Positions 1 through 31,273 of a stretch of 61,176 nucleotides of DNA are shown here, piece by piece (the first letter of the stretch is position 1; the number at the start of each line of letters is the position of its first letter). Both the position numbers and the translations under genes were made by a program. The stretch spans positions 1-61,176 of the forward strand of contig VBLC01000050.1 in assembly GCA_005879315.1 (NCBI GenBank). Direction: 5' to 3'. The stretch is from Deltaproteobacteria bacterium (GTDB lineage Bacteria; Myxococcota; Myxococcia; Myxococcales; 40CM-4-68-19). The notes under the pieces were generated by a model. The model searched no databases, was not told the DNA's origin, and saw only the letters and a list, made by a program, of their open reading frames with translations.

Positions 1-1545
1 CATGTAGGCGAGAAGGCTCTGGCTCTCCTTGTCGAGGATCTCCGCATAGCTGAGCGACCGGCCCCAGTACGAGCCATAGATGGCGTTGTATTCAGCGGTC
101 CACTCGGCAGGAGTGGAGACGTTGTAGAAAAGATTCGTCGGCCGCCGCGGGAGGAAGAGAATCGCGGGCTGGATGGCGCTGCGGATCCCGACGTTGGGCG
201 CCGGATTGCCCCAGCCGGGTTTCGAGCTGTCGCTCACCATGTATTTGACCCCGGCATCCCTCGCCGCCAGAAGGACGTTGGCGTTCGAGAGGCCCGACAT
301 CTCCGGAGTGATCACATTCGCCGCGCTGAAATTCTTGAACGCCTGCCCTCTGGCGAACTGGTTGTTCTTGTCGAGCTCCGCGAAGGCGGCCGCATAGTCG
401 GCGCCGTCGAGAAAGGCATGGTCGAAAGTATTGTTGATGAAGGAATAGTCGCCGTTGAATGTCGCAGCCGTGGTGGTGAGGGTATCGAGAGCGCTGCTGC
501 CCGCGCCGTTGAAGGCGAGCGCGAACCGGAAGCCCGGGTTGCCGTTGACGGTCTGCTGCGTGGTCTGCCAGGTGTGCGCCGCCGTCAGGTCGGCGGAGCT
601 CGAGCGATAGTTGCCGCCGCCATAGATGTCGTCGGTCGAGTAGAAGTAATCGACCTGCGGCGTCAGATAAGAGCGGAACTCGCCGAGATAGATGCCTTTG
701 GTCAGCCACTCGATGAATCCATGGGCCAGCACCAGCTCGTGCAGCAAATACGGGTTCGAATCGAAAGTGATGGCCATCGTCTCGCGCCCATCCGAGGTCA
801 CGCGCGTGGAGACGAGCGCGTTGCCGGCGCTATCGACAAGCAGCGGCGTGACGCTCGCGTCCGACGGCGTCGCCAGATACGTCCACGCCATCGAGATACC
901 GAGGGGGTTCGCAGCATTGATCGAAGCGAAAGCAGTCTTTCCCGCGGAAGTCAGCGTTGCATTGATCGGGTTCGCGCTGGTGTCGACGCCGGCGGAGGGC
1001 CAATTCAAACCCTGGTCGGGGGTCGGATAGACGTACCAGGAGATCTCGCGGACGTGAAAGGCGCTCTCGTAGCTGCGGAGCGTCTGCCATTCGGTCGCAT
1101 TGAGCCCCGAAAGCCAGGTCGCGCCACCGTCCGGCGAATACGCGAGATTGCCGGTGGTGAGAACGATGCCCTGATAATTTCCCGCGCATCCATTGGCGAG
1201 CTTGTCCGAGCTGAGGAGCCCGGGGTTCTGGGACGCGATCCAGACTGCGAATGGAACGCCGTGATAGCCCAGGGCCGTCTCGATCGCCTGCAGATCCGCT
1301 TCCTTTCCGTCGGCGGAGAGCACCAGCACTTTCATCGCCAGGCTGTAGCTCGCGCAGCCGAGCAAGGCCGCGCGGCGCCAGACCTCGGCTGCAGGCGCCG
1401 GCGGCGGAGCGGTCGGCCCGAGCGGCAGCGAGCGAATCACTGGAGGCGCAGGCGGCGCCAGCGCGAGCTTTTGCCAACTGTTCGAAGACTCCCCGCACGC
1501 GGCAAGAATTGCAAAGGCGGACATCACCGCGTTCCACTTGCCCAT
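1..1545 (-). CDS. Agd3-like polysaccharide deacetylase lipoprotein, paralog 6 of 6 (3' end outside window; probably impaired)
   Basis: This is the most downstream visible member of the deacetylase array. The frame is open from an ATG at 1545 to the window edge (515 codons). AGGGAGA about 8 nt upstream supports that start. The N-terminus is a lipoprotein signal ending in a lipobox LAAC at about residue 16, followed by the family's repeats of the type LGPxAPP. The body aligns with its neighbours throughout and is cut after the conserved segment YAEILDKES. Two differences stand out. The first metal motif reads FYSTDD instead of LFIDDD, and the second reads N-T-F-D-H (codons at 418-432), where the other five have H-T-x-x-H. 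One expected metal-binding His is therefore Asn. Function as a deacetylase is inferred from the paralogs, and this copy may be a pseudoenzyme. It lacks the CxGPxC motif found in the others. Confidence 0.8.
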   Translation of the reverse strand, partial: MGKWNAVMSAFAILAACGESSNSWQKLALAPPAPPVIRSLPLGPTAPPPAPAAEVWRRAALLGCASYSLAMKVLVLSADGKEADLQAIETALGYHGVPFAVWIASQNPGLLSSDKLANGCAGNYQGIVLTTGNLAYSPDGGATWLSGLNATEWQTLRSYESAFHVREISWYVYPTPDQGLNWPSAGVDTSANPINATLTSAGKTAFASINAANPLGISMAWTYLATPSDASVTPLLVDSAGNALVSTRVTSDGRETMAITFDSNPYLLHELVLAHGFIEWLTKGIYLGEFRSYLTPQVDYFYSTDDIYGGGNYRSSSADLTAAHTWQTTQQTVNGNPGFRFALAFNGAGSSALDTLTTTAATFNGDYSFINNTFDHAFLDGADYAAAFAELDKNNQFARGQAFKNFSAANVITPEMSGLSNANVLLAARDAGVKYMVSDSSKPGWGNPAPNVGIRSAIQPAILFLPRRPTNLFYNVSTPAEWTAEYNAIYGSYWGRSLSYAEILDKESQSLLAYM

Positions 1546-1559
1546 CACCGTTGTCTCCC

Positions 1560-3578
1560 TCATTGCACCGGCAGGGTTACCGTCCCCCCGGCCGTCACGT
1601 GGACCGGCGTGATGCATTTGCCGGCATAATTCTCCGAGCCGGTGGTGCAGACGCCGCTCACCGCGAACTGCACGTCCACCGGACTGCTGAAGCTCACGCT
1701 CACTCCAGGCGTCAGCGTCGCCGTCAGGCCGGAAGCATTGCGCGCCATCGTGCTCGCGATGCGCGCGCCGGCCACCTGCATGTCCGGACTCATCACCGGC
1801 AGCGTCGATGACTTACGGAACTTCTGGAACGTCAGGTCGAGCAGATCGCCCAGCAGAGTATGGACTCCGTCGTACGCTCGCAGGTTCGGCTGGTGATACA
1901 TGTGCGGATCGATCTCGCCCTCCAGCATGTAGAGGAGGACGTTCTGGCTCTCCTTGTCGAGGACCTCCGCATAGGAGAGCGCTCGACCCCAATAGGTGGC
2001 GTAGAGAGAGTTGTACTCGGCCGTCCATTCGTCCGGCGTCGAGACGTTGTAGAAGAGGTTCGTCGGCCGCCGGGGGATGATGAGGATCGACGGCTCGATG
2101 CTGCTGTAGATCCCGATGTTGGGCGCCGGATTGCTCCAGCCTGGCTGTGAGGTGTCGCTCACCGTGTACTTGACCCCGGTATCCCTCATCGCTGCCAGGG
2201 CGTTCGGATTCGTGAGGCCCGAGACGTCGGGTGAGATGAAATTTGCCGTGGTGAAGTTCTGGAACTGGCCGATCGCGAACTGGTTGTTCTGGTCGATCTG
2301 CGAAAAGGCAAAGGCGTAGTCAGCGTTGTCCAGGTTTTGGTGATCCCAGGTATGGTTGAGGAAGAGATAGTCGGCGTTGGTCGCGAGCACGGCACTCGTG
2401 AGCGGATCGTCCCCGCTCGTATCCGCGCCAATGGCATTGAAGGCCATCGCGAGCCGGAAGCCCGAGTTGCCCGGGTTCGCCTGCTGGCCGACCTGCCAGG
2501 AGTGCGCGGCGTTGTAATCGTCGGCGGTGATGCGGTAGACGCCGCCGGTGAACATGTCGTCATCGATGAAGAGGTCGTCCGACTGCGGCGTGAGATAGGC
2601 GCGGAATTCACCCAGGTAGATTCCGGTCGTCAGCCACTCGACAAGCCCATGGGCGAGCACGAGGTCGTGCACCAGGTTCGGATTCGAGTCGAAGGTGAGC
2701 GCCATCGTCTCGCGCCCATCTGAGGTCAGCCTGCGGGAGACGAGAGCGTGGTTGTCTTTGTCGACGAGCAGCGGCGTGACGTTCGGATCCGAAGGGGTCG
2801 TCAGATACGCCCACGCCTGCGAGATGGTGATCGGGTTCGCGCTGTTGACGTAGGGGAAGACGGTCTTGCCCGCCGCAGTCAGCGTCCCATCGATGGGAGA
2901 GGTGGTGGTGTCGACCGATGCGGACGCAGGATTCAATCCCTGGTCGGCGCTCGGATTCACGTACCAGGAGATCTCGCGGACGTGAAAGCTCGCCTCATAG
3001 TTGCGCAGCGCCTGCCACTCCGCGCTGGTGAGCGCGGAGCGGAACGAAGCGCCGCCGTCGGTCGAGTAGAGGAGCCCGCCGGTGGTCAGGATGATGCCCT
3101 GGTACTTCCCCGCGCAGCCCGCCGAGAGCTTGTCGGCGGTGAGGAGCCCGGGATTTTGCGCGGCGGTCCAGGTCGAGAACGGAATGGTGTGATAGCCCAG
3201 CGCCTGCTGGATCGCGGGCAGATCGTTTTCCTTTCCGTCGGTGGCGATGACCAGCACCTGCATTCCAAGGGAATAGCTGCTGCAGCCGGGCGGAGGAGTC
3301 GCAAGGGCCGTAGCCCTCGAGGGACGCTCGAGCGCCGTCGGATGGGCCAGGGCAGGAGCGCCGGGCGGACCCAGCCACTGCGATCGGATGACCGGCGGCG
3401 CGACTGGCCCGAGCGTGAGGTTCTCCACTGGCAGACCCAGACAGGCGGGCCCGGCGCAGACCTGGAGCAAGTCGAGAAAGATCGGCCCGTCCAACTCGTG
3501 GTTGCTGCTCGATCCGGGTGAGCCGCACCCGGTGAGGATTGCGGCGATGACGAGGATGGGGGCCTCGCGGCGAATCAT
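1560..3578 (-). CDS. Agd3-like polysaccharide deacetylase lipoprotein, paralog 5
   Basis: About 672 residues. It has a lipoprotein signal (lipobox LTGC at about residue 18), a short Pro-rich stretch with CAGPAC and LGPVAPP, then a long conserved body. The NodB-type metal residues are intact: LFIDDD and N-H-T-W-D-H. The product is expected to sit on the membrane facing the periplasm or cell surface and to remove N-acetyl groups from an alpha-1,4-GalNAc polymer. That role is inferred from resemblance to fungal Agd3 (CE18) and from the Pel operon context. The start is uncertain. The ATG at 3590 overlaps the upstream stop (ATGA). The ATG at 3578, preceded by TGAGAAG at the same spacing as the other paralogs' ribosome sites, gives the tidier signal peptide and is used here. 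Only 14 nt separate its stop from the next gene. Confidence 0.82.
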   Translation of the reverse strand: MIRREAPILVIAAILTGCGSPGSSSNHELDGPIFLDLLQVCAGPACLGLPVENLTLGPVAPPVIRSQWLGPPGAPALAHPTALERPSRATALATPPPGCSSYSLGMQVLVIATDGKENDLPAIQQALGYHTIPFSTWTAAQNPGLLTADKLSAGCAGKYQGIILTTGGLLYSTDGGASFRSALTSAEWQALRNYEASFHVREISWYVNPSADQGLNPASASVDTTTSPIDGTLTAAGKTVFPYVNSANPITISQAWAYLTTPSDPNVTPLLVDKDNHALVSRRLTSDGRETMALTFDSNPNLVHDLVLAHGLVEWLTTGIYLGEFRAYLTPQSDDLFIDDDMFTGGVYRITADDYNAAHSWQVGQQANPGNSGFRLAMAFNAIGADTSGDDPLTSAVLATNADYLFLNHTWDHQNLDNADYAFAFSQIDQNNQFAIGQFQNFTTANFISPDVSGLTNPNALAAMRDTGVKYTVSDTSQPGWSNPAPNIGIYSSIEPSILIIPRRPTNLFYNVSTPDEWTAEYNSLYATYWGRALSYAEVLDKESQNVLLYMLEGEIDPHMYHQPNLRAYDGVHTLLGDLLDLTFQKFRKSSTLPVMSPDMQVAGARIASTMARNASGLTATLTPGVSVSFSSPVDVQFAVSGVCTTGSENYAGKCITPVHVTAGGTVTLPVQ

Positions 3579-3586
3579 GGCGCTTC

Positions 3587-5707
3587 TCATTGCAGCGGCA
3601 TCGTCACCGTCTGGCCGGCGGCGACGTCGACGATGGTGATGCATCTGTTGGCATAGATCTCGGAATCGACCGTGCAGACGCCGCTGACGACGAATTCGAC
3701 GGTGACGGGACTGGTAAAGCTGACGCTCACGCCGGGCGTGAGCGTGGCGGTGAGCCCGGAGGCATTGCGCGCCATGGTGTTCCCGACGCGCCAGCCGGAG
3801 TCGTCCATGTTCGGGCTGAGGACGGGCAGCGTCAAATACTTGCGAAACTTCCGGAACGCCGCGTCGTGCAGATCCCCGATGAGCGTGTGCGTGCCGTCAT
3901 ACGCGCGCAGATTGGGCTGGTGATACATCTGCGCGTCGAGGTCGCCCCTCAACATGTAGATGAAGAGCATCTGGCTTTCTTTGTCGAGCACCTCGCTGTA
4001 GCTGAGGTTGCGGCCCCAGAACTTGTTGTAGAAGGAGTTGTATTCGGCGACCCATTCCGAGGGTGCGGTGACGTTGTAGTAGAGGTTCGTCGGCCGGCGC
4101 GGAAGGAAGAGGATGCCCGGCTGGATGGTGCTGTAGAGGCCGATGTTCGGCGCCGGATTGCCCCAGCTCGGTTGGCCCTGACCCGATTCCTTCGAGGTGT
4201 CGCTCACCATGAATTGCACGCCGTCGTCCGAGGCGGCCTGGAGGACGTCCGGATTGGTGAGGCCCGAGACGTCGGGCGAGACCAGATTCGAGACGCTATA
4301 GGCGGTGAATGCGTCGGCGACGGCGAGCTGGTTGTCCTGATCGAACTCGGCGTACGCGGCGTCATAGCCCATGCTGTCGAGGTTCTCGTGATCCCAGGTG
4401 TGGTCGATGAAGGAATAGTTCGCCTGCAGCGCCGTCACCGTGTCGGTGAGTGGATCGCCGCTGCTCGCGCCCACACCGTTGAAAACGAGCGCGAGACGGA
4501 ACGCCGAGTTGCCGGCCTGCGCCTGTGTCGCGCTCTGCCAGGAGTCGGTCGCCCTGAAATCCACGTCGGTGATGCGATAGACGCCGCCGCCGTAGATGTC
4601 GTCGTCGATGAAGAGGTCGTCGACCTGCGGCGTGAGATACGTGCGGAATTCACCGAGGTAGATGCCGTTGGTCACCCACTCGACCAGCCCGTGCGCCAGC
4701 AAAAGGTCGTGGATCAGATTGGGGTTCGAGTCGAAGGTGAGAGCCATCGTCTCGCGGCCGTCGGCGGTCACGCGCGTCGAGATGAGCGAATGGTTCCCGC
4801 TGTCGACGAGGAGCGGCGTGACCTTCGGGTCCGAAGGCGTGGACAGATAAGTCCACGCCATCGAGATGGGGATCGAATTCGCCGTGTTGATGTACGGGAA
4901 GACGTTGCGGCCCGCCGCCGTCAGCGTCGCGTTGATCGGCGTCTTGCTGGTGTCGACCGCGGAGGAGGGCGGATTGAGCCCTTGATCTGCGCCCGGATAG
5001 ACGTACCAGGAGATCTCGCGGGCGTGGAAGCTCGCCTCGTAGCTGCGCAGCGTCAGCCATTCGGTGTTGGTCAGCGCCGAACGCCAGGTCGCGCCGCCGT
5101 CCGGCGAATAGGTGAGCGCGCCAGTGGTAAGGATGACGCCCTGGTATTTTCCCGCGCATCCGCTGGCGAGCTTGTCGGCGGTGAGGGCGCCTGGATTTTG
5201 CGTGGCGATCCAGACCGAGTACGGGATGGTGTGGTAGCCGAGGGCGTCCTTGATGGCCGGCAGGTCGACTTCGTTTCCGTTGGTCGAGATCACCAGCACT
5301 TGCATCCCGACCGTGTAGCTGGTGCAGGCGGAAGTCGCGGCCGAAGGCGTAGGCGGCGCGCGCGTCGGTCCGAGCGGCTGCGACTGGATCAGGGGAGGTG
5401 CGGGTGGCGCCAGTGTCATTTCACGCGCGGCATGGGCAACCAGTGCAGTCGGAGCGTCCGTCGGGAGAGGCGGCGGATCGATCGGTCCCAGCGGCAACGA
5501 AACGATGTCCGGAGGTGCGGGCGGACCCAGCCGGAGCGTCTCCAGGAGCTTGCCGACACAAATGGGGCCGATGCAGATGCCGCTCGTATCGAGAATGATG
5601 ATGTCGTGCTGGCGACCGTTGTCGTTGACGTGTCTCGAGGGCGGCGACGACTCGCCGCATCCGAGGAGGAGGGCCACTGCGATCGCAAAGGGGAATCTGG
5701 CGGTCAC
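3587..5707 (-). CDS. Agd3-like polysaccharide deacetylase lipoprotein, paralog 4
   Basis: 706 residues from the GTG at 5707, chosen because AGGAGT lies 6-7 nt upstream and it gives a clean lipoprotein signal with lipobox LLGC. The frame is open further upstream but without a ribosome site. After CIGPIC the linker contains the LGPxxPP motif twice, an internal duplication that makes this N-terminus the longest of the family. The metal motifs LFIDDD and D-H-T-W-D-H are intact. The N-terminal half (CTSYTVGMQVLVIST onwards) has the alternating strand pattern shared by all six and may be a carbohydrate-binding or Rossmann-like module. The predicted role is de-N-acetylation of the Pel-type polymer. 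Stop and downstream start overlap or lie within 9 nt. Confidence 0.82.
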   Translation of the reverse strand: MTARFPFAIAVALLLGCGESSPPSRHVNDNGRQHDIIILDTSGICIGPICVGKLLETLRLGPPAPPDIVSLPLGPIDPPPLPTDAPTALVAHAAREMTLAPPAPPLIQSQPLGPTRAPPTPSAATSACTSYTVGMQVLVISTNGNEVDLPAIKDALGYHTIPYSVWIATQNPGALTADKLASGCAGKYQGVILTTGALTYSPDGGATWRSALTNTEWLTLRSYEASFHAREISWYVYPGADQGLNPPSSAVDTSKTPINATLTAAGRNVFPYINTANSIPISMAWTYLSTPSDPKVTPLLVDSGNHSLISTRVTADGRETMALTFDSNPNLIHDLLLAHGLVEWVTNGIYLGEFRTYLTPQVDDLFIDDDIYGGGVYRITDVDFRATDSWQSATQAQAGNSAFRLALVFNGVGASSGDPLTDTVTALQANYSFIDHTWDHENLDSMGYDAAYAEFDQDNQLAVADAFTAYSVSNLVSPDVSGLTNPDVLQAASDDGVQFMVSDTSKESGQGQPSWGNPAPNIGLYSTIQPGILFLPRRPTNLYYNVTAPSEWVAEYNSFYNKFWGRNLSYSEVLDKESQMLFIYMLRGDLDAQMYHQPNLRAYDGTHTLIGDLHDAAFRKFRKYLTLPVLSPNMDDSGWRVGNTMARNASGLTATLTPGVSVSFTSPVTVEFVVSGVCTVDSEIYANRCITIVDVAAGQTVTMPLQ

Positions 5708-5741
5708 GAACAACTCCTGCGTGATCCCCTCCGCGAGGTCC

Positions 5742-7721
5742 TCAGTGGTTGACAAAAATGACCGTCTGGCCAGCGCCGACGCTCACGTTGGTGATGCATT
5801 TCCCCGCGTACATCTCGGAGGTGCTGGTGCAGAGGCCGCTGACCGCGAACTGCACGGCCACCGGGCTGCTGAAGCTGACGCTCACGCCTGGCGTGATGGT
5901 GGCGGTGAGTCCGGCCTTGTTCCGGGCCATGGTGTTGGCCATCCGCGCGCCCGCCACGTGCTCGTCCGGGCTCATGATGGGAAGCGTCGAGTACCGACGG
6001 AACTTCTGGAAAGCGGTGTCGAGGAGATCGCCGAGCAGGGTGTGGACCCCGTCGTACGCCCGGGTGTTGGGCTGGTGGTACATCGTCGGATCGATGTTCC
6101 CCTGCAGCAGGTAGATGAGGAGGTTCTGGCTTTCTTTGTCGAGGACCTCGTTGTAGGCGAGCGCGCGTCCCCAGAAGGTCGTGTAGAAGGAGTTGTACTC
6201 GGCGGTCCATTCGTCCGGCGTCGACACGTTGTAGAAGAGGTTGGTCGGCTTGCGCGGGAGGATGAAGATGCCCGGCTGGAGCGCGCTGTAGATGCCGATG
6301 TTCGGCGCCGGGTTGTCCCAGCCCGCCCGCGACGTGTCGCTGATGGTGAAGCGGATGCCCAGGTCCCAGGCCGCCTGGAGCACCGCGGCGTTGTTGAGGC
6401 CCGACACGTCCGGGGTCACCAGGTTCTGCGGGAAGAAGTTCTTGAACCCCCTCGCCTGAGCGAGCTTGATGTTCTGGTCGAACTCGGCGAACGCGGTTGG
6501 GTAGTCCATCAGGTCGAGGTTCTCGTGATCCCAGGTGTGGCTGATCCACTGGAAGTCGCCGCTGTTGGTGATGGCGGCGATGGTCAGCGAGTCGGTGTCG
6601 CTGGCGCCGAATCCGTTGAACGCCCAGGCGATGCGGAAATCCGGGTTCCCCGCCGTGAGCTTCGCTCCGGCCTGCCAGGTGCGGGTGGCGTTGAAGTCGT
6701 CCCCCGTCATGCGGAACACGCCGCCGGTGTACATGTCGTCATCGATGAAGAGGTCGTCGTTCTGCGCCTCGGTGTACGCCCGAAACTCGCCGAGATAGAG
6801 GCCCTTGGTCACCCACTCCAAAAGCCCGTGGGCGAGCACCAGGTCGTGGATGAGGAAGGGATTCGAGTCGAAGGTCAGGGCCATCGTCTCCCGGCTGTCG
6901 GCATTCACCCGGGTCGAGATGAGCGCGTGCCCGGCCGCGTCCACCAGGAGCGGCGTGACCGTCGGATCCGCCGGCGTGGTGAGATAGGTCCACGCCATCG
7001 AGATCGTCACCGGGTTCGCGGCGTTCACGTAGGGGAAGACCTTCACGCCCGCTGCGGTCAGGGTGGCGTCAATCGGCGTGATGCTGGTGTCCACTCCCGA
7101 CGTCGTGGGGTTGAGGCCCTGGTCGGCGCCGGGGAAGACGTACCAGGAAATCTCCCGAACCTTGAAGCTGGCCTCGTAGCTACGCAGCGCCAGCCATTCC
7201 GCCGGCGTCAGCGCCGACACGTAGGTCACGCCGCCGTCCGGCGAGTAAGTCAGGCTTCCCGTCGCCAGGATGATGCCCTGGTACTTGCCGTCACAGCCCG
7301 TGGCGAGCTTGTCGGCGGTGAGCATTGCGGGGTTCTGGGTGGCGACCCAGGTGGTAAAGGGCACCGTGTGATAGCCGAGCGCCTGCTGGATGGCCTGCAG
7401 CGACGGCTCGCTGCCGGTGGCCGAGATCACCAGCACGTTCATGGCCACCGTGGTGACGGCGCAGATGTTCGGCAGCGGCACGGGGAGGGGAGGCGCAGGG
7501 ACGGGGCCGAGAGGCGAGGTAGGAATGACCGGAGGAGCAACCGGGCCGAGGGTGAGGGTCTCGAGGTTTCCCCCGGCGCACACGGGCCCGACGCAGGTGC
7601 TGAGGGGCCCGACCGTGAGCTGGTTGCTCCGCGTCGCCGTCTGGTTCGAGCCGGACGCGCGCTCGCAGGCGCAAAGCACGGCAACTGCTGCAATCGCCAA
7701 GATGACTCTAGGTGCTTTCAC
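5742..7721 (-). CDS. Agd3-like polysaccharide deacetylase lipoprotein, paralog 3
   Basis: 659 residues from the GTG at 7721, which has AAGGAG 7 nt upstream. The signal peptide ends in lipobox LCAC. CVGPVC and LTLGPVAPP follow, then the conserved catalytic region with LFIDDD and S-H-T-W-D-H. A conserved block near two thirds of the length (PRKPTNLFYNVSTPDEW) and a C-terminal beta-rich tail (TPGVSVSFSSPV, then a Cys pair GLC...GKC) are shared with every paralog. The tail may be a substrate-binding sandwich. Spacing to the next gene is 34 nt. The deacetylase assignment rests on the Asp-Asp and HxxxH signature. The CE18/Agd3 affiliation is my recognition of the overall layout and is less certain than the fold. 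Confidence 0.82.
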   Translation of the reverse strand: MKAPRVILAIAAVAVLCACERASGSNQTATRSNQLTVGPLSTCVGPVCAGGNLETLTLGPVAPPVIPTSPLGPVPAPPLPVPLPNICAVTTVAMNVLVISATGSEPSLQAIQQALGYHTVPFTTWVATQNPAMLTADKLATGCDGKYQGIILATGSLTYSPDGGVTYVSALTPAEWLALRSYEASFKVREISWYVFPGADQGLNPTTSGVDTSITPIDATLTAAGVKVFPYVNAANPVTISMAWTYLTTPADPTVTPLLVDAAGHALISTRVNADSRETMALTFDSNPFLIHDLVLAHGLLEWVTKGLYLGEFRAYTEAQNDDLFIDDDMYTGGVFRMTGDDFNATRTWQAGAKLTAGNPDFRIAWAFNGFGASDTDSLTIAAITNSGDFQWISHTWDHENLDLMDYPTAFAEFDQNIKLAQARGFKNFFPQNLVTPDVSGLNNAAVLQAAWDLGIRFTISDTSRAGWDNPAPNIGIYSALQPGIFILPRKPTNLFYNVSTPDEWTAEYNSFYTTFWGRALAYNEVLDKESQNLLIYLLQGNIDPTMYHQPNTRAYDGVHTLLGDLLDTAFQKFRRYSTLPIMSPDEHVAGARMANTMARNKAGLTATITPGVSVSFSSPVAVQFAVSGLCTSTSEMYAGKCITNVSVGAGQTVIFVNH

Positions 7722-7773
7722 GAAAGGACTCCTTGTTGGGCGAGAGAATTGGTTCGTGGACAAAAGGCGCTCC

Positions 7774-9870: not shown

Positions 9871-9909
9871 GGCGAACTCCTTGGTTTTGCGAAAGCGGAT
9901 TGCGGGTCC

Positions 9910-13334: not shown

Positions 13335-14746
13335 GACGCCGCCTCCCGATAGATCTGCCGGTACGCTTCGATCATTTGCGGTTCGGTGTAGTGGGCCTCG
13401 ACGCGGCGGATGGCCGCTCGTTGCGCGGTTCGCCACCGCGCCGGGTCGCGCAACAGCGCAAGCGCCGCTCGCGCGGCGGCACCCGAATCGGCGATCGACA
13501 CGACGGCTCCCGCCGCTCCGAGCGCTCGATCTTCCGCCGTCCTGCCCTCGACCAGCTCGCGGCAGGCGCCCACGTCGGTGGTGAGCACCGGCAAGCCGCT
13601 GGCGAATGCTTCGAGCACGACCAGCGGCAGCGCCTCGCTGATGGAGGTCAGCACGAGCAGGCCGAGCCGATGGAGAATCTCCTCCGGCTTCTGGAAGCCG
13701 AGGAACTTGACGTTGCTCTCGAGGCCGAGGCTTGCGACCAGCTGCCGGCACTCGGCGGCGTAGGCCTCGTCCTCGGAAGTGGGACCGATGATCCAGCCCT
13801 CGACCTCGGGGCGCTCGGCGACGATCGCCTTCATCGCCCGGATGAAGGTCTTGACGTCCTTGATGGGAACCACGCGGCCGATGAAGCCGATCACCGGAGG
13901 CGGCGAGGGCGGCCGCAGCGCGCGCAGCTTGCGGAAGCGGTCGACTTCGACGCCGTTGGGGATGATGCGCGTGTGCGCCGGCTCGGCGCCGTCCTCGATC
14001 TGCCGTTTCCGGTTGCCGTTGTAGAGCGCGATGATCGGGTTGGCCGAGGAGTAGGCGATCTTGCCCAGACCCTGGAAGAGCTGCATCCAGAGGCGGCGGC
14101 CCACCGCCTCGCCTTCTGCGCCATCGCCGGGGAAGGAGTCGGCGCTGGCGAGGTCGATCATCCGCTCTTTGGTGTAGATGCCGTGCTCGGTGAGGACGAG
14201 CGGCCGCCCCTGCCGCTTCTGCAGCAGCGCGCCGAGCAGGCCGGCATAGCCGGTGGAGAGCGAGTGGTAGAAGCGGGCCGGGGGCAGCTGCGCCGCGATC
14301 TCCGCCACCGCGAAGAGCGGAAGGTGCGTGGCACGCATCGTCCAGAAGAAATCGGTGAACGAGGCCGCGGGGCAGTCCTGCCGGTAGCGCTCGCAGATGC
14401 GCTGCCAGGAAGCGTCGCCGCGGAGGAAGCTCTCGCGAGAGAGGACTTGCCCGAAGGTGGCCGCCATCTGCTCGAGCAGGGCCGAGTCGATGACGCAGTC
14501 CTTGCGGCGCGGCCTCTCCTCCCGCTCGAAGAGGTAGTGGCGCTCGAAGTGCACCACGTTGCGCGGCAGCTGGTAGGCCGGCGCCGAGTGGTCGGAGCGG
14601 CGGCCGCCGAGGAAGACGAGGGAGAACCGGAGCTCGGGCAGCGCCTCGATCAGATGATGCACCCAGGCCGAGACCCCGCCGCGCACGAACGGGTACGTGC
14701 CTTCCAGGAGCAGCGCCACGTCGGCCTCGCGGAGCGGCGCGGTCAT
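13322..14746 (-). CDS. pelF: PelF, cytoplasmic GT4 glycosyltransferase of Pel synthesis
   Basis: 474 residues. The N-terminus contains EGTYPFVRGGVSAW, typical of PelF. The C-terminal Rossmann half contains IGRVVPIKDVKTFI and the GT4 E-x7-E element (SEALPLVVLEAF). PelF polymerises GalNAc from UDP-GalNAc and is recruited to the membrane by PelD/PelE/PelG. The ATG at 14746 overlaps the pelE stop (ATGA), with GAGG upstream. It ends in TAG within the start region of pelG. Length is near that of the P. aeruginosa protein. Confidence 0.96.
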   Translation of the reverse strand: MTAPLREADVALLLEGTYPFVRGGVSAWVHHLIEALPELRFSLVFLGGRRSDHSAPAYQLPRNVVHFERHYLFEREERPRRKDCVIDSALLEQMAATFGQVLSRESFLRGDASWQRICERYRQDCPAASFTDFFWTMRATHLPLFAVAEIAAQLPPARFYHSLSTGYAGLLGALLQKRQGRPLVLTEHGIYTKERMIDLASADSFPGDGAEGEAVGRRLWMQLFQGLGKIAYSSANPIIALYNGNRKRQIEDGAEPAHTRIIPNGVEVDRFRKLRALRPPSPPPVIGFIGRVVPIKDVKTFIRAMKAIVAERPEVEGWIIGPTSEDEAYAAECRQLVASLGLESNVKFLGFQKPEEILHRLGLLVLTSISEALPLVVLEAFASGLPVLTTDVGACRELVEGRTAEDRALGAAGAVVSIADSGAAARAALALLRDPARWRTAQRAAIRRVEAHYTEPQMIEAYRQIYREAASWRA

Positions 14747-15660
14747 GTCCAGTACCTCTGCAGCCGGTCGACGGTCTCGACGGCGAGAGCAGGTTGCGCG
14801 AGCCGTTGCTTGACCAGATCGAACCTCCGCCGGAGGAAGGCGGCCTCGGCGAGGTACGGCCGGAGCAGCACCGCGGGCATGCCTTGTTCCGCGGCGCGAG
14901 CGAGCTCGGCCTCCGCTTTGTCCGCCCCGCCAAGGCGCAGGTCGATCCTGCCGAGGAGGAAATGGAGCGAGGCCGACGCCGGATCCGCCTCGAGAGCGAG
15001 ATCGGTGTGCCGGCGCGCCTCGCGCAGGGTGTGCTCGAGGCATTCTCCCTGCGCGAGGCCGAGCCAGGCCACCTCCCAATGCTGGAAGGCGAGGCGGCGG
15101 TGCAGCGCTCCACGGCGAGCGGTGGGCGTCTTTTCCAGCTCGCAGGTGGTTTCGTGGATGCGCCGGTACGCCGCCCTGCTCTTCGACTCCAGAAGCGCAT
15201 GGGCGAGCAGCCTCACTTCTTCTTCGGAGTCCTCCAGCGCGCGCCGGAGCATCGCGACGGAAGCGGCGTCGGTGCGACCGCGCACTTTCGCCAGGGCTTC
15301 CATTCGCGCCCGGCGGCCACCGGAGGGCCGCGGGACGATCGGCGGCTGCGCGGTCGCGGGCGGCTCGGGAATGGGAGTCCGAACGAGCTCGGGCTCCGAC
15401 GATTCCCGTAGCCCGCGCGTGGCGAGACCGACGGCAACGAGCCCGAGAAGGCCGAGGACGGGAACGAAGAACGCTCCGGCGAAGACGAGCGCGAAGCTCT
15501 GCCGGGGTCGACCTTCGAGCAAGCGGCGGTGCAAGAGGGCGGCGCCGCAGCAGCATCCCGCGGCATGAAGGCCGAGCGCAGCGGCGCCGGCGCCGCGGAG
15601 CACCGCGAACAGAGCGAGCGCTTCGAAGGCCCCTGCAGCGATGCCGCGCAACCAGATCAT
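14743..15660 (-). CDS. pelE: PelE, membrane TPR scaffold of the Pel synthase
   Basis: 305 residues. The N-terminal third is hydrophobic with two or three membrane segments (residues about 5-85). The rest is helical, with HEAT/TPR-like repeats (for example ALEADPASASLHFLLGRID). This is the PelE layout, and its position between pelD and pelF fits exactly. It tethers the synthase complex at the inner membrane. The ATG at 15660 overlaps the pelD stop (ATGA). Sequence conservation of PelE is generally low, so the call leans on synteny as well as architecture. Confidence 0.88.
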   Translation of the reverse strand: MIWLRGIAAGAFEALALFAVLRGAGAAALGLHAAGCCCGAALLHRRLLEGRPRQSFALVFAGAFFVPVLGLLGLVAVGLATRGLRESSEPELVRTPIPEPPATAQPPIVPRPSGGRRARMEALAKVRGRTDAASVAMLRRALEDSEEEVRLLAHALLESKSRAAYRRIHETTCELEKTPTARRGALHRRLAFQHWEVAWLGLAQGECLEHTLREARRHTDLALEADPASASLHFLLGRIDLRLGGADKAEAELARAAEQGMPAVLLRPYLAEAAFLRRRFDLVKQRLAQPALAVETVDRLQRYWT

Positions 15661-16664
15661 GAGGCGCTCTCCACGCTCGCTGGAGCCACCGCGACCAGCT
15701 CACTGCGCGGCGCCCGAGCGGCCTGCGGCGCCTGCACCAGCGCCTGCGAGAGGAAGTCGCCGAGCCGGCCGCCCAGCGTGGCGAGCAGCTCGAGCGTCTC
15801 GCCATGCAAGGCGACAAACGGCATGTCGCGGATCGCGACGACCGCGTGCACCCGACACTTGAAATCGACGAGCGGCACCGCGGCGAGCACTTGCGCTCCT
15901 TCGGTGCCGTCGCGGACGCTCGTCGTCACTCCTTGCCGCGCGGCCTTGTGCACGAGCGGATCGCTTTCGCCTGTGGAGGCCGGCCCGAGAGTGGCGATCG
16001 CCGCACCCGGCTGCCCCTTGGCATCGACCGGGTGCAGCGTCGCCACGTGCACGAAGGCGTGCTCCGCGAAGAGCGCGAGGATGAGATCGCCCAACGATTC
16101 GAGCGAGGCGGAGTCGGAGCGGCCAGCCAGAGCGCGCTGGAAGGAGGCGAGCGCGTCGCGCAAGCTGGCCGGCCTTCCCGGCCCCTCGCGTTCCAGCTCG
16201 TCGTGCGAGACCTTGAGGGCGAGATAAGCGCGGCCGAGACTCGTCAAGCGCGTGCGCAGGCGCTCGCTGGAAGCCTCGACGCGGCGGATGCGCCGCTGCC
16301 AGGCGTCGTGGAATTCTCCGGCGAGAAGACCGGCAGCGAGCCAGCCGAGCACGACTTGCGCGATGGAATCGGGCACCGAAGTGATGCCCGCTTTCCAGGC
16401 GATCGCCAGCGCCAGCGCCTGCGCTGCTCCGCACAAGAGGCCGTGGCTCGCGCCGTACTGCAATCCCGCCAGAAGCGGCGCGAGGATGAACCAGGAAAAC
16501 TCGCGGCGCACCAGGAATGGATCGTGCGCGTCGATCAGCCCGCCGACGGCGAGCAGCGCGCCCACCAGACCCGCGATCTCCAGCCAGGACTGCCAGGTGG
16601 GGGCAGCTTCGCGCCGCTCGATCTCGTTCGTCTCCGGGAGTTGCTCGAGTTTCATGGGTTTCAC
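15657..16664 (-). CDS. pelD: PelD, truncated form: membrane region plus GAF, no GGDEF domain
   Basis: 335 residues. It has four predicted membrane helices between about residues 27 and 125, a short coiled coil, and a GAF-like domain (about 160-310, with FVHVATLHPVD and MPFVALHGETLELLATL). The protein ends about 20 residues after the GAF domain. P. aeruginosa PelD is about 455 residues and carries a degenerate GGDEF domain whose RxxD site binds c-di-GMP to switch on the synthase. That whole domain is absent here, and the sequence reads straight into pelE with no sign of a frameshift. The GTG start at 16664 overlaps the pelB stop (GTGA). An ATG at 16655 is an alternative. Confidence 0.93.
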   Translation of the reverse strand: MKPMKLEQLPETNEIERREAAPTWQSWLEIAGLVGALLAVGGLIDAHDPFLVRREFSWFILAPLLAGLQYGASHGLLCGAAQALALAIAWKAGITSVPDSIAQVVLGWLAAGLLAGEFHDAWQRRIRRVEASSERLRTRLTSLGRAYLALKVSHDELEREGPGRPASLRDALASFQRALAGRSDSASLESLGDLILALFAEHAFVHVATLHPVDAKGQPGAAIATLGPASTGESDPLVHKAARQGVTTSVRDGTEGAQVLAAVPLVDFKCRVHAVVAIRDMPFVALHGETLELLATLGGRLGDFLSQALVQAPQAARAPRSELVAVAPASVESAS

Positions 16665-19552
16665 AATCCGAAGCGGTGGGTCAGCGAAAGGGTGACGCCG
16701 AAGTTGCCGCCGCTCGTCCAGCGGTCGTTCGCGGCGAAGGCGGAGAGCGCGAGGTCGGCATTGCTGAAGGGAGCGACCGCGATTCCGGTCTGCACCCGGA
16801 ACGCAGGACGGGCAGGAGGTCCGACCCAGCCGAGCCAGGCGTCGCCCATCAGCCGCGCCGGACCGAGAGACACCCGCGCAGCGCCCACGCCCAGGCCGAG
16901 CAGCGCCAGCTCGGCCGGAAGCACAGGCGCTCCGGGAGCGAAGGCGGCGATCGCGGCAGGGACGAGGCCGGGCGCGACCGAGTTGCGCTGATATCCGCCC
17001 TGCAGGCGGATGCTCAGGTCCGGCTCGGCGCGCAGCCGCCAGCCGATCTCGACATTGCTCGATCCGCCGGTTCCGAGCGCAATGCCCGAACGCGTCGACC
17101 AGCTCTTCCAGTCGAAGGCGAGGCGATGCCAGGTGGGACCGGCGGAGATCGCCACTGCGCCGCCGGCCCGCCTCCGCAATGCCTCGACCCGCAGGGCGGC
17201 GGACTCGTCGGCGGGCTCGTTGAACGACGCCTCGACTCGCGCTTCACCGAACGAGGCGAGGGCCTGCGAGCGCGCGACCGCCAGCTGCAGGACATTTCCG
17301 TCGGCGCGCAAGCTCATCCCTGCGGCCACTTCGGTCCGGCCGCCCAATCCCGGGGCGGCGGCGCGCAGGAGCACTCTTTTTTCCAGGTCGGGCAGCGGTA
17401 CCGCGCCGTCCCTGGCGATGAATCCGATGACGCCGGCCCGGGCCTCGAGCTCCGCGCCGGAGAGCTCGGTCTTGACGAAGACGCGCTGCTGCTCGAAGAG
17501 GATGTTGCCGACCGTCTCTGCTCCGACATCGGCGCCGGCCAGCGATGGCCATGGGGCAGATTGCTGGGCGACCCAGGTCTGCGCGAGCGAGAGATTGCCC
17601 GAGTCCCGCTGGTAGAAGGCGAGCGCTTCGCGCGACCGGCCCAGCTCTTCCAGACCGGCGCCGTAGGCGCGCCACAGGCCGGGCTCGCTCGGCGCGTCTG
17701 CTCTCCACGCATCGAGGCACTCCGCGAGAGCATGCCGGTCGTGCACGCCGGCCAGGAGCCAGATCAGCCCCGAGCGCGCCGCGGCCGACTTCGGATCCGC
17801 CGCCAGCGCTTTGCGATAGGCCTCGCTCGCCGCGGAGATCTTGCCGCTCTGCTCCTCGAGGCGCGCGCGCAGCAACCAGTACGCTGGCTGGCTGGCGAAG
17901 ACATCGCCGGCTGCCTCTGCCTCGCCGGCCAGCCGCTCGAGCTCGGCCCACTGCCCTGCTCTTGCCGCCTCGTCCATCGCCAGGAGAAGGAGGCGCGGCT
18001 GGTGGAGGCGAGCCCAGCTGTCGCGGCCGAGATGGATCACCTCGTCGCTGCGACCTGCCGAGCGGCTGAGGAGGAGCAATCGCTCGGCGGCCATCGCGTC
18101 GCTGCGGCCTTGCTCCCAAAGAGCCGTGTACGCCCGGCGCGCGAGGGCGTCCGCTTCCTGCCGCCAGGCGAGATCGGCGAGCAGCTCCCAGTAACCGGAA
18201 TCGGGCTCGCGCGCGGAGTCGATGAAGCGCTCCAGCTCTCGCAGCGCCCCGCCGGCGTCGCCGACGGCCCAACGCAGACGCGCCACCCGGATGGAGTTGG
18301 CCAAGCTGGCGCCGAACCTTCGTTCCATCTCCGTCCGGGTGGCGAGGGCGTCGGTGAAGTCGCGCCTTCTTTCCTGCGCCTCGGCGAGGCTCTCCCAGGC
18401 GGCCGCGGTGCGGGAATGAACGGCGGCGTAGCGCTCGAGAACGAGCGCGGCGCTCCGCGGCGGGCCGCTGCTGTCGAGCGCATCCGCCAGCTCGGCGAGA
18501 GACGCAGGGGGAAGGGAGCCGCTCCGCGACTGCAGCGTCAAGAGCTGGGCGACGGCCCCTTCGTCGCCTACGCCTCTGGCGAGCGGCAGCGCCTGGCCGA
18601 TGGCGTCGGGAGCGCCGTGCCGCGCCAGCCAGGTCCAGTGGCGCAGCGCAAGGTCCGCGCGGCCGGCCCAGCCCGCGACTCGTGCGGCCGTGAGCCGGGC
18701 GCGTGGATCTTCTGGCGATCTCGCCGCGAGGAGCTCGGTCACTTGCACCGCTGCGGCCAGGTCGCCGGCGGCGAGGTCGAGGTCGAGCTGCCTCGCCAAA
18801 GAGACTGGATCGACGGCGCCGATCCACATGAGATTCGCGCCGAACCGCCGGGCACGCTCCACATCGCTCTGGGCCAAGGCGGCCGCCTCCGCCCTCTCCA
18901 GGACGGTGCGCTCCGCTGGGAAGCGCTCGACCAGCATGTCGGCCAGGCGCAGCGCCTCGGCGCCCTGCCCCGCGGCGCGATACGCATCGAGCGCCTGCAG
19001 CCCGAGCGCCATCGCTTGCTGCGGATCGCCGGCCTGCGCTGCGGCGCGCTCGTGCGCGTGCGCGGCGACGTCGGGCCGGCCGAGCTCCTCGGCGACGGCG
19101 GCGGCGCGGGCGAGATCGTCGAGCTCGTTTCGCGCGAGAAGCCACTCGACGCGAGCGAGTGCTCTCGCTTCCGCGGCGCCGCGGTCGGCCGACCCGAGAG
19201 GCGCGGCTCGCCAGGCGCCGACTGCAACGTCGAGCAGGAGCAGTGCGACCTCGCGCTGCGCCGATTCTTCGAAAGGAGCCAGCGTCCGCTCGGCATCCTC
19301 ATGCAGTCCAAGCGCCAGCTGCTCGCGCGCCAGCCGGCAGCGCATCTCGACATTGGCGGGATGGCGATCGACATCGGCGCGGAGGAGCGCCACCGCGAGC
19401 GCGTCGCCGATGGCATTCGCGGGGAGCTGCGATCGATCGCCAACCCAGAGGTGAAGGGCGCTCAGGCCGCCCACCGACATCGCCGCGAGTGCGGCTGAAC
19501 GCAACGGCCCGATCAGTCGCTCGCGGCGAGTCTGGTGGGGGGCCCGGGACAT
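16661..19552 (-). CDS. pelB: PelB, outer-membrane export channel with TPR domain
   Basis: About 963 residues. It begins with an inner-membrane or signal helix (residues about 18-35), followed by a long alpha-helical TPR region (about 45-600, many A/L-rich 34-residue repeats) and a C-terminal beta-barrel of alternating amphipathic strands ending THRFGL. In P. aeruginosa PelB, the TPR part binds PelA and the barrel exports the polymer through the outer membrane. This copy is somewhat shorter than the P. aeruginosa protein (about 1190), the loss being mainly in the TPR part. Two adjacent ATGs (19555, 19552) follow GGAGA. The second has the better spacing and shares one base with the pelA stop. 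Confidence 0.93.
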   Translation of the reverse strand: MSRAPHQTRRERLIGPLRSAALAAMSVGGLSALHLWVGDRSQLPANAIGDALAVALLRADVDRHPANVEMRCRLAREQLALGLHEDAERTLAPFEESAQREVALLLLDVAVGAWRAAPLGSADRGAAEARALARVEWLLARNELDDLARAAAVAEELGRPDVAAHAHERAAAQAGDPQQAMALGLQALDAYRAAGQGAEALRLADMLVERFPAERTVLERAEAAALAQSDVERARRFGANLMWIGAVDPVSLARQLDLDLAAGDLAAAVQVTELLAARSPEDPRARLTAARVAGWAGRADLALRHWTWLARHGAPDAIGQALPLARGVGDEGAVAQLLTLQSRSGSLPPASLAELADALDSSGPPRSAALVLERYAAVHSRTAAAWESLAEAQERRRDFTDALATRTEMERRFGASLANSIRVARLRWAVGDAGGALRELERFIDSAREPDSGYWELLADLAWRQEADALARRAYTALWEQGRSDAMAAERLLLLSRSAGRSDEVIHLGRDSWARLHQPRLLLLAMDEAARAGQWAELERLAGEAEAAGDVFASQPAYWLLRARLEEQSGKISAASEAYRKALAADPKSAAARSGLIWLLAGVHDRHALAECLDAWRADAPSEPGLWRAYGAGLEELGRSREALAFYQRDSGNLSLAQTWVAQQSAPWPSLAGADVGAETVGNILFEQQRVFVKTELSGAELEARAGVIGFIARDGAVPLPDLEKRVLLRAAAPGLGGRTEVAAGMSLRADGNVLQLAVARSQALASFGEARVEASFNEPADESAALRVEALRRRAGGAVAISAGPTWHRLAFDWKSWSTRSGIALGTGGSSNVEIGWRLRAEPDLSIRLQGGYQRNSVAPGLVPAAIAAFAPGAPVLPAELALLGLGVGAARVSLGPARLMGDAWLGWVGPPARPAFRVQTGIAVAPFSNADLALSAFAANDRWTSGGNFGVTLSLTHRFGL

Positions 19553-22029
19553 CATTCTCTCCTGCACTCGAGCCGCGCCTCGCCGGTGTCGGCTTGCGCG
19601 AAGGAGAAGGTGAGAAGGCCCGCCGCGCGCGCCGGCCGGATCCATCTGCCGTGCGCCTGCAGCGTGCAGTCGTCAGCCCCGGCGATGGCGAAGCGCACCG
19701 GGGCGTGTCCCTTGAGCCGCAGGAAGAGGGAGTGGCCGTTCGAAGACCAGCGCTCGAGCGGAGCATTTGCCCAGGCGAGATGTGCGCCCTCCATCGGCTC
19801 TTCCGAGAGCGCAAGGGCAGGCTGCCCTTCGGGAGCGAAACTGACGTACCGCCATTCGCCGACCTCGCGGACCGCAGCGACGCCGCTCGATCGCGAGAGG
19901 TCCGGCCATCCCGACGCGCGCGGCAGGCGAACGGTCCGCAGCCGGCCGAGGTCGCGGAACTGCCAGCTGCCGTCCAGCCTTCGCGCCATCGAGAGCGAGC
20001 GGAAGTCGAGTACCCGGCGTGCGTACTCGCTAGACCAAATCGGCAGCGCTGCTTGGTCCATTGCCCAGCGCAGCACCTCCTTGAGAGAGTGCAACGCCGC
20101 CGACTTGGTCGCGATGGAGAAGTGGTAGTAGAGCCCGATCGGCTTGAGCCGCCGCGGGCTCTCGGCGCGGTCGATGAGCGCGATGACGTGCTGAGGATCG
20201 AAGCGCCGCGCCTCCCAGGAGCTCGAGACGCCGCTCTCGTTCCAGCCCGGCAAGTAGACTTGGAAGGTGTCGCCGACGGGCAGGCCGCTCGGCGACAGCT
20301 CCGAGAGCGACGGCTCGCCGGCGTCCTGCAGGTTTCCATTCGCCAGCAATCCGCCGAGCTGGCTGACCGGCTCGACGTTCGGGAGCACGGAGACCGCCTG
20401 GCGGAATGCTGGCTGATCGGAGGGGAGCACGACCGTCGTCGGGAGCGGCGCCCCGAGCACTTGACGGAGGATCACGTCGGCCGCGGTGCTGTGGCCCGCC
20501 GGCCGCGAGAATCCTTCGGAGTCGGCGACGACCACGAGCAGCCGTGCCCCATTTTCGGTGGTGAGGTCGGCTACCGGGATGGTCCCCAGCGCGAGCGCTT
20601 TCTCGAGAAACGAGAAGGGATCGACGATCCAGCGCGCGCGATCCTGGTAACCGACCTCTACGGCATACGGCTCGAGAGCCATCCCTCCCCAGGGAGCGGT
20701 GATCACCGGGTCGGTCGGCTGGCCTGAAGCATCCTCGAGACGGAGATGAACGTTGACTTCGGAAGCCGCGGCTCGCCAGCCGAGCAGCCCGCGGCCGCGC
20801 GGTTCCGGCTCGGCCTCGAGGCCGATGAGCCCGTCGCGCCCGGCGATGCGGAGCGGGCGCGACGGCGGGCTTTGCGGAGCCTCGAGCCCGAGCCGGGTGA
20901 GGAAGCTCTTCGACGCGCTGAAGCCGAGGTGACCGAAGATCGCCACCCGTACGCCCGCGTCGATCTGCTCCAAGAGCCACTGCGGATAGCCGAGCGAGTC
21001 CGGCATCTCGTCGTCGGTGAACCAGGTGACGATGCCCGCGTAACGGCCGGCCAGCGGCTCCTTGGGCAGCCCTCGCCGCACGTCGAGGTACTCGGCGATG
21101 CAACCGAAGTATTCGACCGGCAGCGTCGCCAGCCGATGGATCGGGCTCTGCTGCAGACTGGGAGTCTCGGCGCCGTCGTAGAGGAGCAGCATGCGCCGCG
21201 GGATCACTTCGACCGAGCCCACCCCGAGCACATCGAGCGCGGCATTGGAGATCCACGGCACGAAGCCCATCGCCGCGATCCGCCGCGCCGCCTGCTGGGC
21301 TGCCTCACGCCGCGCGGGCGGGAGGTAGTCGACGACGACGATGGGGATGCCGAACCGTTCCTTCACCTTCTGCAGCTGGCCGGCGAGCCACTTGCGGTCG
21401 TCGCCGGAGACTTCGACGTAGCGCTTGGCGTTCGCATCCCAGCCGTAGAGGAGCGATTCGGCGGCGAGGCCGCTGGCGAGCGCTCCGACTTCGTCGAGGA
21501 TTTCGAAGCCGCGGTTGAAGAAGAGCTTCAGCTCGGGATTGCGGCGATGGATGGCGCGGATCAGATCGGCGAGCGCAGCGCCGGCCGCCCGGCGGGCCTC
21601 GCCGCCGTGAAGGACGCGCAGATAGCTATCGAGCGTATCGAGGAAGAGGCCGCGGTATCCGCTCTCCGCGAGAGCGGAGGCCCGATCGAGGATCAGGTTG
21701 CGCCATCCGGCTGCGGCTGGATTGACGACGACGCTGTTCCAGGCCGGGTTCGTTCCCAGGACCCAGCTCCGCTCGACGCCGGGCGCCGCCTCGCCGAGGC
21801 TCAGGTATGCGAAAGCCTGGACGCCGGACGCTTGTAGCTTGCTCAGCTCGCGGGCGTCGACGTTCTCGGGTAGCACGACCGCCCAGTCGAAGTGGCTCAG
21901 CTCGACGATCGGGACCGGCCTGCCATAGAAGAAGGCGACTGCGGGGCTCGTGTGGCGCGCTTCGGCGGGAGCGACAGCAGGTGCTACCAGGGAGAGAAGA
22001 ACCACCGTCAGTCGGCTCCAGGCGCGCAT
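19552..22029 (-). CDS. pelA: PelA: active-looking GH166 hydrolase fused to a degenerate deacetylase domain
   Basis: 825 residues with a signal peptide (to about residue 24), so periplasmic. Residues about 28-275 form the GH166 endo-alpha-1,4-N-acetylgalactosaminidase barrel. FLDTLDSY (130-137) and AESLLYGWD (190-198) keep the acidic catalytic residues. A middle domain (about 280-400) contains WFTDDE. The deacetylase-like domain begins near TTENGARLL (490-498), but its first metal motif reads DSEGF (503-507), not the usual DGDGF. The region that should carry HxxxH (after LPNVE, 549-553) reads PVSQLGG with no His. The later hallmark YYHFSIATK (634-642) remains. No HxxxH occurs anywhere in the protein. 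I infer hydrolase competence but loss of deacetylation, which the downstream lipoproteins may replace. Confidence 0.95.
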   Translation of the reverse strand: MRAWSRLTVVLLSLVAPAVAPAEARHTSPAVAFFYGRPVPIVELSHFDWAVVLPENVDARELSKLQASGVQAFAYLSLGEAAPGVERSWVLGTNPAWNSVVVNPAAAGWRNLILDRASALAESGYRGLFLDTLDSYLRVLHGGEARRAAGAALADLIRAIHRRNPELKLFFNRGFEILDEVGALASGLAAESLLYGWDANAKRYVEVSGDDRKWLAGQLQKVKERFGIPIVVVDYLPPARREAAQQAARRIAAMGFVPWISNAALDVLGVGSVEVIPRRMLLLYDGAETPSLQQSPIHRLATLPVEYFGCIAEYLDVRRGLPKEPLAGRYAGIVTWFTDDEMPDSLGYPQWLLEQIDAGVRVAIFGHLGFSASKSFLTRLGLEAPQSPPSRPLRIAGRDGLIGLEAEPEPRGRGLLGWRAAASEVNVHLRLEDASGQPTDPVITAPWGGMALEPYAVEVGYQDRARWIVDPFSFLEKALALGTIPVADLTTENGARLLVVVADSEGFSRPAGHSTAADVILRQVLGAPLPTTVVLPSDQPAFRQAVSVLPNVEPVSQLGGLLANGNLQDAGEPSLSELSPSGLPVGDTFQVYLPGWNESGVSSSWEARRFDPQHVIALIDRAESPRRLKPIGLYYHFSIATKSAALHSLKEVLRWAMDQAALPIWSSEYARRVLDFRSLSMARRLDGSWQFRDLGRLRTVRLPRASGWPDLSRSSGVAAVREVGEWRYVSFAPEGQPALALSEEPMEGAHLAWANAPLERWSSNGHSLFLRLKGHAPVRFAIAGADDCTLQAHGRWIRPARAAGLLTFSFAQADTGEARLECRRE

Positions 22030-23402: not shown

Positions 23403-23447
23403 CGAATCAATCTTAAGTGCTCGGTCGTATCGGTGCTTGGAGGAACG
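23403..23447. promoter_or_regulatory. Very short divergent intergenic region between LuxR-type regulator and HAMP-array kinase
   Basis: Forty-five bases, more A/T-rich than the surroundings, lie between the two divergent starts. Promoters for both genes must overlap here or reach into coding sequence. I see no confident -35/-10 pair. A GGAGGA ribosome site for the kinase occupies 23439-23444. Confidence 0.4.
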
Positions 23448-30212: not shown

Positions 30213-30392
30213 CCATGTCCGCGGCCAAAGGGGACTTCCCGCGTCGGTGAAATTGTCTACACATCGCCCCGTACGGAAGTCCCCCTGCGGCCGGGGCGAT
30301 TGCGGACTGCGAGTGGCGTCGTCCGCTTGTAGGTCCAGCGACCATGCGCTGTACCTCGACTCCATCGCCTTCCAGACGCAAGATTCGCGAAG
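30213..30392. promoter_or_regulatory. Divergent intergenic region with a long inverted repeat (30230-30284)
   Basis: GGGGACTTCC at 30230-30239 and its reverse complement GGAAGTCCCC at 30275-30284 flank a 35-nt, more A/T-rich loop that probably contains promoter elements. The right arm overlaps CGTACGGA (30270-30277), the same octamer that forms the arms of the palindrome upstream of pelA. The region separates a sensor kinase (minus) from the GH114 gene (plus). Operator function is inferred. Confidence 0.45.
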
Positions 30393-31193: not shown

Positions 31194-31273
31194 GCCAGGG
31201 GACGGAAATGCCACAGCTACCTCCTTGAAACCCACTCGCGCGCGCAGATACGACAGGCGAGCGGAGGAACGCT

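Follow-up and report, generated by a model that had tools for sequence, protein, structure and literature searches.

Agd3-type lipoproteins as the probable replacement for a lost PelA deacetylase site in a Myxococcota Pel operon

How does a Pel operon manage when its PelA appears to have lost the ability to deacetylate the polymer, and why should the same operon carry six copies of a different deacetylase gene? The question arises from a stretch of Myxococcota DNA (VBLC01000050.1), referred to here as the window, which is the whole of contig G000:C6: 61,176 bases, 67% GC, from a 4.4 Mb draft genome. Its first 22 kb hold, on the minus strand, pelA-pelB-pelD-pelE-pelF-pelG, and directly after these, six paralogues of Agd3, the deacetylase that acts on GalNAc (N-acetylgalactosamine) stretches of fungal galactosaminogalactan (PMC7229062). 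I call them agd1 to agd6. I propose that stand-alone proteins of this type, lipoproteins combining a CE18 with a CBM87 domain, took over deacetylation from PelA, and that one genus then amplified them. I consider this account likely to be right.

The argument begins with PelA. Pel in Pseudomonas is a partially de-N-acetylated alpha-1,4-GalNAc polymer, and a P. aeruginosa strain with a point mutation in the PelA deacetylase makes no extracellular Pel at all (PMC10269871). The active sites of PelA are conserved across full-length homologues (PMC12022489), which has been taken to mean that a full-length deacetylase is essential in every working pel operon (PMC10269871, PMC12022489). Shortened proteins like those described below would likely have been missed by the coverage filters of the latter study. 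The PelA of the window (19552..22029, minus strand) is readily recognized, by phmmer against PtPelA (9cgy; E 2e-136), by Pfam GH114 (E 4e-11), and by alignment. The match to PtPelA falls into two pieces (30-511 and 567-822), with 156 PtPelA residues standing opposite 56 in the window. A deletion of about 100 residues in the CE21 deacetylase domain removes the HxxxH motif, and HxDxD is degraded to VADSEG. The same is seen more widely: all six Myxococcota PelA proteins aligned with MAFFT lack the SHTxSHP segment and the roughly 100 residues surrounding it, all have an altered HxDxD, and one of the six genomes is a closed chromosome of 10.26 Mb. The hydrolase motifs FLDTLDS and AES, of the GH166/GH114 type, are retained. 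Judged by its CE21 motifs, the deacetylase site of the window's PelA is catalytically lost. If the operon works, then another deacetylase is needed, since the Pseudomonas mutant makes no extracellular Pel.

Could PelA nonetheless deacetylate through a rearranged site, with the Agd3 proteins as accessories? Four relatives and the window still have the Asp that is the putative catalytic base (ADSEG, ADG-G, IDGEG), and the window's PelA keeps YYHF. But the HxxxH segment is deleted in six of six. In the window, HxDxD has other residues at both its metal Asp and the His before that Asp, no relative has the motif complete, and most relatives have lost the YYH acid motif as well. A working rearranged site is therefore very improbable. 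The original prediction had the array adding to a deacetylase domain present in PelA; with CE21 catalytically lost, replacement is the better reading.

What, then, are the six proteins? All exceed the Pfam cut-offs for Agd3_CE (PF25115; 62-116 bits against a cut-off of 27.6) and for CBM87_Agd3 (PF25116; 56-70 bits), and a profile built from the six finds Agd3 (6nwz) as its sole match in PDB (E 4e-46). At the start of every copy stands a signal peptide with a lipobox-like end (LVAC, IIGC, LCAC, LLGC, LTGC, LAAC), so that lipidation is predicted, and then come a variable Pro-rich linker, CBM87, CE18, and a C-terminal beta part. Mean identity is 40% in the linker, 70% in CBM87, 62% in CE18, and 59% in the beta part. 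The catalytic motifs of Agd3 are Asp-Asp, HxxxH, Arg, and His (PMC7229062). Copies agd1 to agd5 keep both metal-site motifs, CM1 (Asp-Asp) and CM2 (HxxxH). The CM3 Arg is present in all six as PRxPTN, and the CM4 His is found as MYHQ in agd1 to agd5 and lies past the contig end in agd6. In agd1, DD is at 325-326, HTWDH at 398, R at 493, and H at 552.

The six genes all lie on the minus strand: agd1 at 9910..11898 (Agd3_CE E 7e-28, CBM87 E 1e-15), agd2 at 7774..9870 (Agd3_CE E 2e-33), agd3 at 5742..7721 (E 4e-30), agd4 at 3587..5707 (E 8e-26), agd5 at 1560..3578 (E 2e-27), and agd6 at 1..1545 (Agd3_CE E 5e-17, CBM87 E 3e-19), which is truncated because the contig begins inside it. The last four bases of pelG overlap the start of agd1 (GTGA), and the gaps that follow measure, in order, 39, 52, 34, 8, and 14 nt for the start codons chosen, most of them with an AGGAG-like site. 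A scan of the array for terminator-like and promoter-like matches gave no excess. Thus the original prediction had the layout right in order, strand, and coordinates, six tandem paralogues after pelG with five of them complete, and had correctly placed them in the Agd3 family as putative lipoproteins.

The operon itself, judged by its markers (PelF, PelG, the PelB barrel, and the PelA hydrolase, all present), is a genuine Pel operon. Besides pelA it comprises, all on the minus strand, pelB (16661..19552), encoding a TPR protein with an outer-membrane barrel (Pfam B-barrel_PelB_C E 2e-30, TPR_15 E 5e-47); pelD (15657..16664), reduced to its membrane and GAF-like part, as recognized by tblastn and blastp to pelD of relatives and proteobacteria and by C-terminal alignment; pelE (14743..15660), with weak TPR similarity and blastp matches to the pelE position of other pel operons; the glycosyltransferase gene pelF (13322..14746; NCBIfam NF038011 E 1e-191); and the transporter gene pelG (11895..13334; Pfam PelG PF16933 E 7e-142).

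PelG, Agd3_CE, and CBM87 each exceed their cut-offs in six of 195 Myxococcota genomes, and these are the identical six; the same six are the ones with PelF above cut-off, among 146 genomes. The probability of such a coincidence is 1.4e-11 by genome and 4e-7 by genus (4 of 90) if these are treated as independent, figures that relatedness weakens. Five congeners of the window have neither PelG nor Agd3, so the two were gained or lost together. Among the Myxococcota genomes, Agd3 adjoins pel genes in G057, G073, G079, and G141, and in G005 it is found at contig ends bordering the pel operon. A genome-wide scan for peptide patterns picked out one relative only, Anaeromyxobacter RBG_16_69_14. Outside the phylum, where all controls are plasmid records, Agd3 is found beside pelF with stand-alone hydrolases in four of four Deinococcus records and in Thermus, Kocuria, and Streptomyces. 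(PelF of D. grandis is not annotated as such and was identified by blastp.) The pelF clusters of Deinococcota and Actinomycetota have Agd3 and a stand-alone hydrolase and no PelA-type deacetylase. Conversely, ten proteobacterial PelA proteins (Caballeronia, two; Azonexus; Paraburkholderia; Cupriavidus, two; Burkholderia cenocepacia; Pseudoalteromonas; Azospirillum, two) have all the CE21 motifs, and on none of their replicons is there a match to Agd3. That Agd3 belongs with pel, as originally predicted, is thus borne out: in Myxococcota and in the plasmid clusters with pelF, the family does not occur mainly away from pel genes.

Several observations pull the other way. The PelA-like proteins of Paracoccus (L094 171-2408) and Cereibacter (L095 5878-8172) have lost their CE21 motifs, there is no Agd3 on either pel plasmid, and none of the pel neighbours scanned is a recognized deacetylase. 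These Rhodobacterales show that CE21 loss does not require Agd3, and a strict rule equating the one with the presence of the other, which I had considered, is broken by both. In Burkholderia stagnalis the Agd3 homologues are located away from the pel genes. The six losses in Myxococcota may represent one ancestral event and not independent ones. Nor does structure prediction help: AlphaFold2, given a shallow alignment of seven sequences, produced a model of agd2 with a pLDDT (predicted local distance difference test) of 42, too poor for its best Foldseek matches, to the N-deacetylase/N-sulfotransferase NDST1, to count, and its model of PelA, also from a shallow alignment, was useless and is not used as evidence.

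The Rhodobacterales and B. stagnalis might even be turned into a different account: that the Agd3 proteins act on some other polymer, for example fungal galactosaminogalactan or the matrix of prey met by a predatory bacterium, and do no more than share an operon with pel, deacetylation of the PelA type being dispensable in this lineage. Lipoproteins could face outward. A lipoprotein anchor would suit the periplasm just as well as the surface, and the surface location and charge pattern originally proposed are guesses. But a protein directed at foreign polymers should hardly follow PelG so perfectly across 195 genomes, nor sit beside pel genes or pelF in Myxococcota, Deinococcota, and Actinomycetota alike, nor be coupled to pelG by a 4-base overlap, as agd1 is. 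I regard this account as improbable.

Replacement of CE21 by CE18, followed by amplification, is the most economical account of the locus. The mechanism would run as follows. PelF and PelG would make and move the alpha-1,4-GalNAc polymer. PelA would keep its role as endo-hydrolase and probably that of scaffold at PelB. The five intact CE18 enzymes, anchored in the membrane, would de-N-acetylate the chain, each gripping it through its CBM87 domain, and agd6 would probably do no more than bind polymer. If so, the step that sets the charge of the polymer was handed to separate membrane-anchored enzymes, as the gene content suggests. The reason for six copies may lie in dosage, in division of labour, or in binding by agd6.

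Consider agd6 first. In place of the Q-DDL-IDDD of the other copies, its CM1 reads QVDYFYSTDD, so that the metal Asp has become Tyr, and in place of -HTxxH its CM2 reads NNTFDH, so that the first metal His has become Asn. Two of the three metal ligands are substituted, which none of the 22 other sequences compared shows, and agd6 is for that reason probably a pseudoenzyme, an Agd3 relative without enzymatic activity. The idea that all six copies are active fails on the same substitutions, and the metal motifs initially ascribed to the paralogues in general hold for agd1 to agd5 only. Is the gene simply decaying? As far as the incomplete gene goes, its frame is open for 515 codons, its GC content at third codon positions is 0.82, and its ratio of nonsynonymous to synonymous substitution (dN/dS) against its siblings is like theirs. 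These features fit a retained pseudoenzyme better than a decaying gene. Neither the rest of agd6 nor a longer array was found elsewhere in the assembly, and the remainder of the genome has no other member of the family.

The history of the array bears on why there are so many copies. Identity among the paralogues is 57-73% at the protein level and 65-75% at the DNA level. Chance, or an artefact or duplicate of assembly, can be dismissed given this degree of DNA identity and six profile matches. An IQ-TREE phylogeny of 23 proteins unites all six with the two copies of a congener, G005, in one clade (100/99). Within it, one G005 copy joins agd1 and agd3, and the second joins agd2, each grouping at 100/100. 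The G005 copies are two pieces at contig ends and may be either one gene or two. The grouping implies that the expansion belongs to the lineage of the genus and took place before these two species diverged. Anaeromyxobacter (G057) has two copies, which are sisters, and the Stigmatella-like G073 and G079, and G141, have a single copy each, divergently oriented beside pelA. A smaller, independent duplication is seen in Deinococcus aquaticus (L078 8542-13272), where two tandem Agd3 paralogues lie in the pelF cluster. In Anaeromyxobacter RBG_16_69_14 (L020 ~7900-9900), a secreted lipoprotein-like protein resembling Ig-like and beta-propeller repeats is situated between pelG and the Agd3 gene.

Perhaps tandem duplication merely raised the amount of one deacetylase, with agd6 in decay and no division of labour. 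This explanation shares the replacement of CE21 with the account given above and differs solely on why there are six copies. Six adjacent copies with a common domain order, short gaps, and similar AGGAG-type sites are what one would expect of it, as are an expansion limited to one genus and the loss of a metal site in agd6. Against it stand the conserved frames of the copies, their dN/dS ratios of about 0.25-0.46, which indicate that purifying selection keeps the array, and two copy types that G005 shares. Together with a protein identity of 57-73%, this means that the copies have long been kept as distinct versions. The linkers, moreover, are strongly divergent. Dosage alone is a possible reason, though I think not the probable one. 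A relay is a tentative idea, and one I hold with some doubt: five CE18 lipoproteins with different chain preferences, and a dead member with its CBM, might be arrayed along the export path to set the degree and pattern of deacetylation, in place of the CE21 half of Myxococcota PelA.

Other parts familiar from Pseudomonas are missing too. PelC, there a part of the export ring, has no counterpart between pelB and pelD, since the stop of pelB overlaps the start of pelD (16661-16664), and the pel operons of the Myxococcota relatives leave no room for the gene either. The GGDEF domain of PelD, which in Pseudomonas binds cyclic di-GMP (c-di-GMP), is present by alignment in G073 and G079, and the protein stops short of it in G005, G057, G141, and the window. 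The window's lineage has probably lost the control that c-di-GMP exerts over Pel by way of PelD. Beside the operon are genes for a GAF-LuxR regulator (22158-23402, minus strand), a hybrid histidine kinase with seven HAMP domains (23433-27503, plus), a receiver-histidine kinase (27479-28633, plus), a receiver-LuxR regulator (28624-30012, minus), and a PilZ-DUF6197 protein (31274-31924, plus). The regulators within 22158-31924 are possible replacements in the control of the operon. Among them lies a stand-alone GH114 gene (30393..31193, plus; Pfam GH114 E 3e-82), encoding an Ega3-like endo-alpha-1,4-galactosaminidase that is a probable partner of the Pel system from outside the operon.

The opposite exchange also exists. 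In Paraburkholderia graminis (L070 11620-14661) and Burkholderia cenocepacia (L073 11266-14088), the hydrolase motifs of PelA are degraded, CE21 is intact, and a separate polygalactosaminidase gene directly follows pelG. Here is one lineage with a PelA that lacks its deacetylase site and with Agd3-type enzymes in place; there, a hydrolase lost from PelA and a stand-alone one gained. Taken together they suggest that the modification of Pel is modular. At this locus one can ask directly whether CE18 and CE21 can stand in for each other on Pel, and its array raises the question of whether several deacetylases may tune one polymer.

How much of this has precedent? Bamford et al. (2020; PMC7229062) reported bacterial homologues of Agd3, naming Stigmatella, and noted Gram-negative operons with an Agd3 homologue and homologues of Pel outer-membrane components. 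The arrangement was originally predicted to be undescribed, and for the link between Agd3 and Pel operons that is not so. The array, its pseudoenzyme member, and the loss of CE21 from Myxococcota PelA were not found in the open-access papers searched, subscription journals and supplements aside. The window resembles those operons in having an Agd3 homologue beside Pel genes in a Gram-negative, and differs in having six in line; the text of that study describes neither arrays nor loss of the PelA site. With Agd3 of Aspergillus fumigatus it shares CBM87 followed by CE18, CM1 to CM4 in five copies, and a GH114 hydrolase nearby (30393-31193). Unlike the fungal enzyme, its six proteins are putative bacterial lipoproteins that have a Pro-rich linker and are the products of a Pel operon, and one of them has no metal site. 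Tandem Agd3 paralogues are shared with the pelF cluster of D. aquaticus, where there are two and where no Pel outer-membrane genes were seen. The order pelA, B, D, E, F, G, the hydrolase part of PelA, and PelF and PelG are as in pelABCDEFG of Pseudomonas aeruginosa (PMC12022489), where PelA is bifunctional (GH166 + CE21), but the window is without pelC, the GGDEF of PelD, and the CE21 site of PelA, and has CE18 genes after pelG. A parallel is pelDEADAFG of Bacillus cereus (PMC13254593), where PelADA, a stand-alone Pel deacetylase with a CBM, likewise does the work that elsewhere falls to the deacetylase domain of PelA. That enzyme (CE26 + CBM114) is a single copy in a Gram-positive, and those of the window belong to another family.

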